Position numbers and translations under genes: made by a program. This document shows positions 54,366 through 63,186 of a DNA stretch of 64,000 bases, piece after piece (the first letter of the stretch is position 1; every line of letters begins with the position of its first letter). Below the pieces are notes generated by a model. The model had not been told where the DNA came from and did no database searches. It worked only from the letters and a program-made list of their open reading frames with translations. The stretch comes from a virus, in IMG/VR virus record IMGVR_UViG_3300047480_000545, positions 1 through 64,000 of that record. One strand, given 5' to 3'.

Positions 54366-55493
54366 ATGGATAAACTAGAAGATTACATTCGCTCGAATGT
54401 TTTCGACTATCCAACCCTCGTTCTAGATGTGGAGAAGGTAGAAGAAAACTACAAAAAATTGAAATCTGGACTTGGAAATGCCCATATTCACTATGCCGTG
54501 AAAGCAAATCCACAAAAGGAAATCATAAACAAACTCGTCAAACTTGGATGCCGTTTTGACGCAGCAAGCGCAGAAGAAATACGCATATGTCTATATGCTG
54601 GCGCTAAACCAGAACACATTAGTTTTGGAAACACGGTAAAGCGTCCAGCAGACCTTGAATATGCGTATGCACAAGGTATCAAACTTTATGCAGCAGATGC
54701 AGAAGAAGAACTAGACAAGATAGCAAAATACGCACCGAACAGTGAAGTATTCATTCGCCTATTAGTTACAAACTCACAAGCGGAATGGCCATTGAGTCGT
54801 AAGTTTGGATGCGGACAATCAAAAGCTATTCCTCTCATGAAGTATGCTAAATCTGTTGGGCTGAAACCAATCGGTATTAGCTTCCATGTTGGGTCGCAAA
54901 CTCGTCATCCAGAAATGTGGGATGACACTCTGACATATGCCTCAGAGGTCTGGAAAGACGCTGTAAGCAATGGCTTTGATATGAAGCTACTCAACATAGG
55001 TGGTGGATTTCCTGCCTTCTATGGCGTTCCTATCACCGATTCAGAGGCATACTGCCAACTACTCACACAGATGATTTCGGATAAGTTTGGCGTTGTTGAG
55101 TATATCATGGCAGAACCTGGCCGTGGTATGGTTGGAAATGTTGGTATGATTTCTGCCAATGTTCTACTTGTGTCAACTAAAAATGAAGGTGACGAAGTTC
55201 GTTGGGTTTACTTGGATATTGGTAAGTTCAGTGGCCTTGCAGAAACCGCAGAAGAAGCAATCAAGTATCAGTTTGTGACACCAGATTGCCGTAGCAATGA
55301 TACAATGTCCTGTGTTCTTGCTGGTCCTACCTGTGATAGTGCTGATGTTTTGTATGAAACTAACAAAGTAAAGTTTCCAACTGACTTGAAGTCTGGTGAT
55401 AGAATCTTTATCAAGAACTGTGGAGCATACACAACTACATACTCAACGGTTGCGTTCAATGGGTTTCCGCCACTTGGCGTAATCGTAATATAA
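54366..55493 (+). CDS. ornithine decarboxylase-like PLP enzyme (fold III)
   Basis: 375 residues. PLP-lysine motif HYAVKANPQKEI (about 39-50), SFHVGSQ, NIGGGFPAFYGV (about 216-227), AEPGRGMVGN and LAGPTCDSADVL, GAYTTTYSTVAFNGF. Matches alpha/beta-barrel decarboxylases of the ornithine/diaminopimelate group; the length favours bacterial and eukaryote-like ornithine decarboxylase. It would make putrescine, a DNA-packaging counter-ion. Late promoter upstream fits a role at packaging. Confidence 0.85.
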   Translation: MDKLEDYIRSNVFDYPTLVLDVEKVEENYKKLKSGLGNAHIHYAVKANPQKEIINKLVKLGCRFDAASAEEIRICLYAGAKPEHISFGNTVKRPADLEYAYAQGIKLYAADAEEELDKIAKYAPNSEVFIRLLVTNSQAEWPLSRKFGCGQSKAIPLMKYAKSVGLKPIGISFHVGSQTRHPEMWDDTLTYASEVWKDAVSNGFDMKLLNIGGGFPAFYGVPITDSEAYCQLLTQMISDKFGVVEYIMAEPGRGMVGNVGMISANVLLVSTKNEGDEVRWVYLDIGKFSGLAETAEEAIKYQFVTPDCRSNDTMSCVLAGPTCDSADVLYETNKVKFPTDLKSGDRIFIKNCGAYTTTYSTVAFNGFPPLGVIVI

Positions 55494-59882: not shown

Positions 59883-59958
59883 GGTGCTGTAACTCAGTCG
59901 GTAGAGTGCCTGGCTCATAACTAGGTTGTCGTAGGTTCGATTCCTACCAGCACCACCA
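59883..59958 (+). tRNA. tRNA-Met(CAU), elongator type
   Basis: Acceptor GGTGCTG/CAGCACC, A73, CCA; stem CCTGG/CTAGG, loop CTCATAA; normal D and T arms. Confidence 0.92.
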
Positions 59959-59976
59959 AACTTATAAGGACACGAA

Positions 59977-60693
59977 ATGAAAATATGCATATTGACAGGG
60001 GCGGGAATTTCCGCAGAAAGCGGAATCAAAACATTTCGTGATACCGATGGACGTTGGAATGAATATGATGTAACTGATGTAGCAACCCCAGAAGGTTTCT
60101 ATAAAAATCCAAAACTTGTATTAGACTTCTATAACCATAGACGTAAAGAAGTTGCCGATGCAAGACCAAACAAAGCGCATTATGCTTTAGCAGCATTACA
60201 GCATAATCCAAATTTTGATGTTACTTTGATTACTCAAAACGTAGATGACTTACATGAAAAAGCAGGGTCAAAAAACGTATTGCATATGCATGGAAGTTTG
60301 CACGAATCTATTTGTAGAAAATGTGGAGACATTACAACTGCAAATGAAGTGATGCAAACACACGATATTTGTGATGATTGCTATCATCCTGCATTACGCC
60401 CAAACATCGTTTGGTTCGGTGAATTTCCATACTACATGGAAGTGATTGATGATGCACTTAGACGTTGTGACATCTTTGTTGCGATTGGAACATCTGGAAC
60501 AGTTTATCCTGCGGCTGGATTTGTGAAGACTGCAAAGAAAAAAGCAAGAGCACATACTGTTGAAATCAATCTACATCCTTCTGAAAACAAGTATATGTTT
60601 ACAGAAAGTATGGATGGGGTTGCAACAGAAATGGTTCCTGCGTTTGTTGAAAAGTTACTAAGCGGAGAATATGATTACTTGAAAGTTCAGTAG
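59977..60693 (+). CDS. sirtuin NAD-dependent deacylase (Sir2/CobB-like)
   Basis: 238 residues. ILTGAGISAESGIKTFRD (NAD site), TQNVDDLHEKAG, catalytic His in LHMHGSLHE, zinc Cys pairs CRKCGD and CDDCYH, and FVAIGTSGTVYPAAGF with EINLHP. It would remove acyl groups from lysine or, as antiphage sirtuins do, consume NAD; in a phage it may counter defence or reset host acylation. Its stop codon overlaps the rRNA-like element that follows. Confidence 0.9.
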   Translation: MKICILTGAGISAESGIKTFRDTDGRWNEYDVTDVATPEGFYKNPKLVLDFYNHRRKEVADARPNKAHYALAALQHNPNFDVTLITQNVDDLHEKAGSKNVLHMHGSLHESICRKCGDITTANEVMQTHDICDDCYHPALRPNIVWFGEFPYYMEVIDDALRRCDIFVAIGTSGTVYPAAGFVKTAKKKARAHTVEINLHPSENKYMFTESMDGVATEMVPAFVEKLLSGEYDYLKVQ

Positions 60694-60745
60694 GAGGTTG
60701 GCTTAGAGGCAGCACATCCTTTAAAGAGTGGAACGAAGCACCGTG
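60692..60745 (+). ncRNA. 23S rRNA GTPase-associated-centre-like RNA element
   Basis: 60692-60713 (AGGAGGTTGGCTTAGAGGCA plus GC) matches the bacterial 23S sequence around E. coli 1055-1076 with one change (A to G in TTAGAAGCA). After one inserted A, 60715-60730 CATCCTTTAAAGAGTG matches 1077-1092 of the consensus exactly. The next bases keep a GTG/CAC helix-44-like hairpin but diverge. This is the L11 and thiostrepton binding domain, where the L10-L12 stalk docks. It starts on the sirtuin stop codon, so it is co-transcribed with it. Confidence 0.8.
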
Positions 60746-60887
60746 AACGCAAAGAGACTATATCGGGCTGTGAAAACAAGTGGTATAGGGAGAGGCTGGG
60801 CGGGAAAATGCGGACAGTAACAGAAACATAATCGCTCGTTATGATATTTTTGGCTCTGTTTTCCTTTGGCGTAGCAGCACACTATTG
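60746..60887 (+). ncRNA. remainder of the rRNA-like transcript
   Basis: Non-coding tail between the rRNA-like element and the next gene. GGAAAA (about 60807) can pair with the later TTTTCC (about 60860) and ACAGA with TCTGT, which would extend one hairpin. No gene. Confidence 0.35.
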
Positions 60888-60895
60888 AATAAATA
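60888..60895 (+). promoter_or_regulatory. possible late promoter (AATAAATA)
   Basis: One mismatch from TATAAATA, 20 bp before the 60916 ATG with AAAGGA between. Confidence 0.45.
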
Positions 60896-62057: not shown

Positions 62058-62249
62058 ATGCTTATTATAGGATGCAAACATAGAGCAAACTCATATTCTG
62101 CTATAAATGCCGTTAGAAAGCACACTGGAAAAAGTTTACTTGAAAGTAAAAGACTTATTGAAAGCGTGATGGAAGGAAAGACTGTTGAACTTCCTGATGA
62201 TTTTGTCCTACGAGAAGATTTGGAAGATGCCAACTTTTTAGTGGCTTGA
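62058..62249 (+). CDS. ribosomal L7/L12 C-terminal-domain-like small protein
   Basis: 63 residues. SAINAVRKHTGKSLLESKRL has the pattern of the L7/L12 C-terminal domain (K-x-x-x-I-K-x-V-R-x-x-T-G-L-x-L-K-E-A-K), which recruits EF-Tu, EF-G and other GTPases. It lacks the L12 N-terminal dimerisation part. Located 1.4 kb after the RNA that resembles the L11/L12-stalk base, it could bind host translation factors. Similar stand-alone domains exist in other large phages. Confidence 0.7.
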   Translation: MLIIGCKHRANSYSAINAVRKHTGKSLLESKRLIESVMEGKTVELPDDFVLREDLEDANFLVA

Positions 62250-62292: not shown

Positions 62293-63186
62293 ATGAAAGT
62301 ATTAGGACTATTCAGTGGAATCGGTGGCTTTGAACTTGGGCTTCAACGCGCAGGGTTTGATATAACTGCCATGTGTGAAATCGAAGAACCAGCCACACGG
62401 GTTCTAAAAAAGAATTTTCCTAACGCTGTTATTTTTGACAACGTAAAAACTCTCTCACTGAAAGGTGGAGAGTATGATGTTATGTGCGGGGGGTTCCCTT
62501 GCCAAGACATTTCTGTAGGTGGAAAAGGTGCTGGCATTACTGGTGAACGTTCTGGATTATGGAAAGAGTATCTACGACTTATAGATGAAGGGAAACCAAA
62601 ATATGCGATCATTGAAAACGTCTTTGCAATCCTTGGCAGAGGAATTGAAGTCGTCCTACACGACCTTGCCCAAATCGGGTACGATGCGACTTGGACAATC
62701 TACGACTCCAAGTTTTTTGGAGTTCCCCAACGAAGACGTAGAGTTTACATTGTGGCCGTCCGTGACGGAATCCCCCTTGGAACCGAAATCTTCAAGTTTA
62801 GAGAACGTGATACTGACGAACACAGAAGAAAAGTGGAATCTATCTCACAAGGCTTTGAGTGGAGTTTTGAGGCGAAGCCAGAAAGAGGGCAAGAAGCCTT
62901 TACCTACATCACTCGTCAAAGCAATGCAGAATTTACCGAATCAGGATTAGCATCAACTCTTTGTAAACGAGACTATAAACAGTTTACAGATTTGGTAATC
63001 ACTGAAAATAGAATACGCAGGGTTACTCCAACTGAACGACTACTTCTACAGTCGTTCCCAATTGATTGGTTTGATGGTTGCGACCTAACCGATACTCAAA
63101 AGTTCGTGTATAATGGAATGACGGTAAATGTCATTCAGCATGTTGGTGAGTTGATACGGGAATTTGATGATGCACAACAAGTTTGA
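62293..63186 (+). CDS. DNA cytosine-C5 methyltransferase
   Basis: 297 residues. LGLFSGIGGFELGLQRAGF (motif I), CGGFPCQDISVGG (motif IV, catalytic Cys), AIIENV (VI), FGVPQRRRRVYIVA (VIII), RRVTPTERLLLQSFP (IX) and NGMTVNVIQHVGELI (X). Complete Dcm-type enzyme; no restriction partner nearby, so it probably protects phage DNA. Recognition site unknown, but it is not an adenine (GANTC) enzyme. Overlaps the next gene. Confidence 0.9.
   Translation: MKVLGLFSGIGGFELGLQRAGFDITAMCEIEEPATRVLKKNFPNAVIFDNVKTLSLKGGEYDVMCGGFPCQDISVGGKGAGITGERSGLWKEYLRLIDEGKPKYAIIENVFAILGRGIEVVLHDLAQIGYDATWTIYDSKFFGVPQRRRRVYIVAVRDGIPLGTEIFKFRERDTDEHRRKVESISQGFEWSFEAKPERGQEAFTYITRQSNAEFTESGLASTLCKRDYKQFTDLVITENRIRRVTPTERLLLQSFPIDWFDGCDLTDTQKFVYNGMTVNVIQHVGELIREFDDAQQV

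Follow-up and report, generated by a model that had tools for sequence, protein, structure and literature searches.

Many large bacterial viruses carry an RNA gene that copies the GTPase-associated centre of 23S rRNA and might act as a ribosome decoy

Phages are well known to use tRNAs, tmRNAs and a few ribosomal proteins to gain control of translation, but, to our knowledge, no free-standing viral RNA has been described in which a functional centre of the large subunit of the ribosome is reproduced. The closest described systems are the following: (i) the GTPase-associated centre (GAC) of 23S rRNA itself (E. coli 1051-1108; Rfam RF02541); (ii) GOLLD and ROOL, structured phage RNAs often found near tRNA islands, with a variable and a conserved domain and of unknown function (PMC12286853); (iii) ribosomal-protein leader RNAs, such as the L10 leader, which imitate the rRNA site bound by a ribosomal protein; and (iv) the pseudo-ToxI of phage PhiTE, a phage non-coding RNA that works by molecular mimicry (PMC3475682). 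Leader RNAs are cis elements in the mRNAs of ribosomal-protein operons. In the ribosome, the GTPase site has two rRNA elements, the GAC and the sarcin-ricin loop (SRL); U1060 of the GAC is contacted by L11, and A1067 and A1095 are thiopeptide contacts (PMC9769715). Here, many large bacterial viruses are reported to carry a previously undescribed RNA gene that copies the GAC; its role as a ribosome decoy is inferred, and falls a little short of being probable.

The window, that is, the whole stretch of DNA analysed, comprises positions 1 to 64,000 (64,000 nucleotides) of a 202,706-bp IMG/VR virus record (IMGVR_UViG_3300047480_000545) in which one copy of the RNA is present. A sequence-only reading had claimed near-identity to 23S rRNA around E. 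coli 1055-1092, beginning at the stop codon of a sirtuin gene, and both the letters and the RF02541 alignment bear this out. The Sir2-family sirtuin gene (59977..60693, plus strand) ends with a stop codon at 60691-60693, and by direct reading the 23S-like sequence starts at the last base of that codon: 60693-60713 corresponds to E. coli 1055-1075 with a single change (A1070G), an extra A at 60714 interrupts the match, and 60715-60729 (CAUCCUUUAAAGAGU) is again exact, so that 60693-60729 represents the 5' half of the GAC (E. coli 1055-1090). RF02541 aligns 60693-60741 to model positions 1096-1145 (49 nt aligned) with 16.3 bits and an E-value of 0.0048 in 361 nt. Since this score is far under the rRNA gathering cut-off of 50 bits, the element fails as a bacterial LSU rRNA belonging to a 23S gene, in agreement with the earlier claim that it is not part of an rRNA gene.

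The whole RNA is considerably longer, as it occupies 60685..60890 on the plus strand (about 206 nt) and includes a closing stem (P1) at both ends, the two halves of the GAC and an insert. Its order is P1 at the position of helix 42 (H42), H43, the 1081-1090 junction, a P2-closed insert, the H44 tip and P1 again, and the proposed fold puts P1 at the base. The 5' strand of P1 (60685..60693, plus strand), the equivalent of H42, overlaps the final sirtuin codons and the stop codon, and pairs with the 3' strand (60882..60890, plus strand); this pairing covaries across the family. The H43 equivalent (E. coli 1056-1081; 60694..60720, plus strand) has G at 1070 and the added A mentioned above, and is followed by the junction UUUAAAGAGU (1081-1090; 60720..60729, plus strand) with A1084, A1085, G1087 and A1088. 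The insert domain (60730..60864, plus strand; 135 nt) is closed by P2 (GGAA at 60730-60733 with UUCC at 60861-60864), which also covaries across the family, and its type is partly common to three other loci (L068, L094 and L114). The 3' half UUUGGCGUAGCAGCACAC (G1091-C1104, H44 tip; 60865..60882, plus strand) was recognised by side-by-side comparison of phage gaps and by scans. A covariance model (R1) of the RNA matches the window at 60685-60748 and 60815-60890.

Thus, the sequence-only reading of a phage-encoded mimic of the 23S GAC was right in essence and incomplete: its extent of 54 nt (60692-60745) fails, given that 60730-60745 belongs to the insert and not to the mimic, and it missed the 3' half, the closing stem and the structured insert. 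The two checks it had proposed, a match limited to helices 42-44 and conservation in related phages, both came out positive: the match is confined to H42-H44, and the element is conserved, with covariation, in other phages. Rfam searches at the gathering threshold, and at relaxed thresholds on the window, XacN1 and one further locus (L021), returned no family other than LSU at the RNA site, and tRNA and tmRNA models gave no match at 60685-60890. Folded in silico, the window RNA does not exceed shuffled sequences in stability (z -0.82), and the SRL (H95; AGUACGAGAGGA on a stem) is absent from the window copy.

Regarding its surroundings, the RNA sits in a tRNA-rich region and on the same strand as the nearest upstream tRNA, of Met type (CAT; 59883..59958, plus strand). 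A gene resembling ornithine/arginine/diaminopimelate decarboxylases adjoins the tRNA cluster (54366-55493, plus strand), and a C-5 cytosine DNA methylase gene lies in the same region as the RNA (62293-63186, plus strand). A 63-aa ORF (62058-62249, plus strand) resembles a small part of the C-terminal domain of bL12 (Pfam E 0.038, below the cut-off) and has no tblastn relatives among named phages, and was dropped as evidence on both counts. Pfam L12 matches are found in 6 of 54 carrier records, one of them being a full-length bL12.

When the window region was compared with named phages by BLASTN, matches appeared in unannotated intergenic gaps of genuine phages. Once these gaps were placed side by side, a second conserved block (CYUUUGGCGUARYAGCACAC) was seen 60-340 nt downstream. 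This block corresponds to the remaining half of that rRNA domain (E. coli 1091-1104, GCGUAAUAGCUCAC), and the strand after it is complementary to the sequence immediately before the first block. A scan of IMG/VR with the 3' block found at least 119 stretches. IMG/VR contigs and named phages together yielded 102 distinct RNAs, 79 of which remained after removal of near-duplicates. A second, independent scan, for which the 5' block alone served as the seed, gave 21 new loci: 20 have the 3' block and the P1 stem, and in the remaining one (L139), cut at a contig edge, both halves are matched by the covariance model. The second G of UUUGGCG appeared invariant in the first set partly because of the search pattern, since 4 of those 20 loci read UUUAGCG. 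The claim that the resemblance is far beyond chance also held, because over 100 phage contigs and some 20 named phages have the element together with its unlooked-for 3' half.

The named carriers, Otagovirus being among the sources, include the Pseudomonas phage pf16, UNO-G1W1, Milchi, Astolliot, Aeromonas 4_4572, XacN1, XaC1, XbC2, Vibrio 2.275.O, Serratia BF, several Erwinia phages, Cronobacter GAP32, Pectobacterium CBB and Acinetobacter ME3. There is one copy per genome, sometimes two (Milchi, Astolliot and L071); in these three (the first two being L005 and L006) the copies are in tandem, and the upstream copy of Milchi and Astolliot has diverged (UUUGGUGUCAUAACACGCC). Two carrier contigs also encode a tmRNA (L074, 1861-2208, minus strand) or a permuted tmRNA (L080, 858-1082, minus strand). 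In GTDB bacterial genomes, only 7 of 21 pattern matches have the full RNA, the others being due to chance. The Rheinheimera matches from the BLASTN comparison with named phages vanish once the query is limited to the GAC. A 128-kb plasmid of Methylobacterium indicum (pVL1_2, NZ_AP024147.1; L187) bears a GAC RNA with an SRL, and may be a phage-plasmid. The phage-annotated record of Paenibacillus phage Pd_22F (MZ092003.1; L007) contains a genuine host 23S rRNA, likely due to contamination or mis-assembly. The family is absent from Rfam 15, and no earlier description was found in the open-access literature searched, the XacN1 paper included, most subscription journals and preprints being outside that search; it is likely that the family is new.

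This RNA family conserves the GAC in its sequence, in its secondary structure and in the nucleotides of its tertiary contacts. In 60 distinct sequences, the proposed structure, tertiary pairs included, is formed in 94.4% of cells versus 73.2% in shuffled data. The covariation score is 0.538 versus 0.132 (0/500 shuffles), and reaches at most 0.18 in controls with the partner slid by 1-3 columns. Strand-shuffling (0/2000 in every case) lowers pairing from 85% to 43% for P1, from 88% to 51% for P2, from 100% to 48% for 1058/1080, and from 94% to 48% for 1082/1086, the latter with exchanges among U-A, A-U and C-G that reproduce a tertiary contact of the GAC. The H43 pairs (1057-1059/1079-1081 and 1062-1064/1074-1076) are paired in 98.9% of cells, with compensatory changes at 1057/1081 and 1058/1080, which meets the test for a GAC fold, and G1059, U1060, A1084, A1085, G1087 and A1088 are each present in 79/79, which meets that for the U1060-A1088 contact. 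An uninterrupted H44 is not found, as the P2 domain stands between 1090 and 1091 in every member. As a reciprocal test of fold identity, a covariance model derived from phage copies alone, after the insert had been trimmed, finds 23S rRNA in 88 of 249 Pseudomonadota genomes (E about 1e-8), all listed matches being 66 nt long with 23S spacing, as expected without an insert; it also recovers the known 23S loci of E. coli (L130) and of the Pd_22F record. The identity of the RNA as a GAC mimic is close to certain.

Not everything in the GAC is kept. P1 is a plain helix and the L10-binding kink-turn region of H42 is not copied, which leaves unsupported the earlier suggestion that the mimic covers the seat of the L10-L12 stalk. 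In the 23S rRNA of 71 bacterial genomes, searched with the tips left open in the pattern, U1061, A1067, G1068, A1069, A1070 and A1096 occur without exception, whereas the phage RNAs deviate at 1061 (22/79), 1067 (8/79 non-A), 1068 (12/79), 1069 (6/79), 1070 (21/79) and 1096 (25/79). This pattern of kept and relaxed positions is more consistent with selection for a compact fold and uL11 binding than for exact factor-contact tips, an inference made without binding data. An extra hairpin in the H43 internal loop at 1077/1078, near the L11 site, is observed in about 11 of the 79 members. The loci in which it was noted are L025, L045, L046, L058, L062, L064, L080, L089, L101, L102, L124, L125 and L129.

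The copies are intergenic (ORFs of at least 100 aa cover 17% of the RNAs versus 69% of control positions) and often lie inside tRNA clusters. A tRNA is found within 500 nt of 38 of 49 RNAs, versus 46% for random positions, and the 40 RNAs that have a tRNA no farther than 1 kb away all share its strand.

The stem-closed P2 domain is highly variable (25-360 nt across the family), and the large version is not essential everywhere because the insert of one member (L110) measures just 25 nt. Some motifs recur among members; no consensus fold beyond P2 was found in 12 inserts of the window type, and 12-mers shared between inserts and E. coli 23S or 16S rRNA are near chance and no more numerous than in shuffles, the SRL excepted. 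A subset of the family carries an SRL at a matching position of the insert. The hairpin, AGUACG(A/G)GAGGA (E. coli 2654), was seen in the inserts of the Methylobacterium plasmid copy and of two phage copies (L039 and L100); a search of the 3.07-Mb collection of loci (both strands; true 23S loci excluded) found seven, all inside GAC-mimic RNAs, and spacing-constrained scans raised the number of SRL-bearing members to nine. All nine have the 5' half of the GAC, which the search pattern did not require, both halves being present, and their SRL is placed 242-276 nt away from the 5' half and 68-117 nt ahead of the 3' half. The loop is kept over differing stems (CCCUC/GAGGG, UUACAU/AUGUAA and UUGCAU/AUGCGA, among others). 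Most members, the window copy included, are without it. In five loci with inserts of the jumbo-phage type (L009, L120, L121, L124 and L186), a conserved GGCGAAGCC hairpin is observed roughly at the SRL position of other members, along with a CCCUUAGAG strand ahead of the 3' half.

In terms of function, the best reading is that of a stand-alone rRNA mimic which associates with host uL11 and serves as a decoy of the factor-binding centre; as a whole, this reading is as likely to be wrong as right, and there are no binding, expression or phenotype data. A stand-alone non-coding RNA, co-oriented with the phage tRNA genes, would fold into the GAC (H42 stem, H43 and H44 tip) with a variable domain plugged into H44, this GAC-like folding being inferred. 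It would then recruit uL11, a step for which the inference is modestly favourable; the partner would be that of the host because no uL11 gene was found in any of 54 carrier phage records (the control was detected in all 14 test genomes). The complex would finally act as a decoy that absorbs uL11 and/or a factor that recognises the site (RelA, translational GTPases), and may thus dampen a response of the infected host, for instance RelA-dependent alarm signalling; this outcome, also inferred, is the weakest part and is held with some doubt. Interference with RelA is a plausible benefit because RelA binding to the ribosome is mediated by L11 (PMC9998046). Against the best reading stand the lack of an SRL in most members, the variability of the insert, the hairpin near the L11 site in about 11/79 and the unremarkable stability of the window fold, and the relaxed tips (A1067 being non-A in 8/79) argue, by inference, against a decoy that GTPases recognise exactly as they do the ribosome. 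Of the roles raised by the sequence-only reading, titration of L11 or of a factor remains the leading idea. The relaxation, compared with 23S, of A1067 and the tip positions around it speaks against thiopeptide baiting, and the insert speaks against incorporation into host ribosomes. A bolder reading, which is only a possibility, holds that these RNAs rebuild the whole factor-binding centre (GAC and SRL) off the ribosome with host uL11 bound, and would capture or misdirect host translation and stress factors, members without an SRL using another hairpin for the same role.

Other explanations can be proposed. The most tenable is that the GAC fold with uL11 is merely a stable platform for protein binding, with the actual function residing in the variable P2 domain, much as in the ornate phage RNAs GOLLD and ROOL; SRL-type hairpins would then be structural modules. 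This scaffold is possible: the P2 domain is large, variable and stem-closed, insert motifs recur, GOLLD and ROOL are likewise located close to tRNA islands of phages, and ribosomes are pulled down by GOLLD (PMC12286853). Motifs of the GNRA and bulged-G type are, besides, common building blocks. But the 25-nt insert indicates that a large P2 is not needed everywhere, and the SRL tip is conserved letter for letter over unrelated stems. It is unlikely, in turn, that the RNA is a counter-defence decoy, that is, a substitute substrate for host toxins or nucleases that attack the factor-binding centre of 23S rRNA. Phage tRNAs are thought to play such a role for anticodon nucleases; the position of the RNAs in tRNA clusters, the SRL copies of the subset, the cleavage of the SRL by VapC toxins (PMC5408214) and the precedent of a phage RNA that mimics an antitoxin RNA (PMC3475682) speak in its favour. 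Nevertheless, no toxin is known to act on the GAC itself and the SRL is missing from most members.

A free-standing factor trap, in which the RNA would bind translational GTPases (EF-G, EF-Tu, IF2, RF3) directly and without uL11, could draw on the joint presence of both elements of the ribosomal GTPase site in nine members; it is very unlikely, given that the factor-facing tips are relaxed, that the phage itself needs these GTPases and that most members have no SRL. Finally, some matches in phage collections are true 23S rRNA (the Pd_22F record and records of 3-5 kb), so that a captured or contaminating, functionless piece of host 23S rRNA had to be considered. It is all but excluded: phages of distant hosts have in common the phage-specific P2 insert, UUUGG, A1101 and a short P1, there are compensatory changes, and the RNA is present in single copy per genome in intergenic gaps. 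For the family this explanation is refuted by the covariation data, and it is true only of the aforementioned records.

If uL11 binding by the preferred uL11-bound mimic proves true, these RNAs would be a natural GAC decoy and a new viral route to ribosomes or to the stringent response. The family also constitutes an independent evolutionary record of which GAC nucleotides serve the fold and uL11 binding (kept) and which serve factor contact (relaxed). The RNA is present in cultured phages (Pseudomonas pf16, Cronobacter GAP32, Pectobacterium CBB, Serratia BF and Acinetobacter ME3) and is, therefore, testable.

Compared with the known systems, the phage RNA shares with GOLLD and ROOL the features given at the outset, but those RNAs are larger, no rRNA-like domain has been reported in them, and their Rfam models have no match, at the gathering threshold, in the window or in 20 related loci. 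It resembles ribosomal-protein leaders in imitating an rRNA site, but sits in phages without uL11 genes; and while PhiTE pseudo-ToxI is likewise a phage mimic, it imitates an antitoxin and not rRNA. From the 23S GAC it differs in being a separate phage gene with a 25-360 nt domain between 1090 and 1091, U1101A, relaxed tips, no kink-turn part of H42 and, in the window, a score of 16.3 bits versus the cut-off of 50, whereas the sequence of H43, the 1081-1090 junction, the H44 tip, the A1088-U1060 and 1082/1086 contacts and the position of the closing stem are the same in both.
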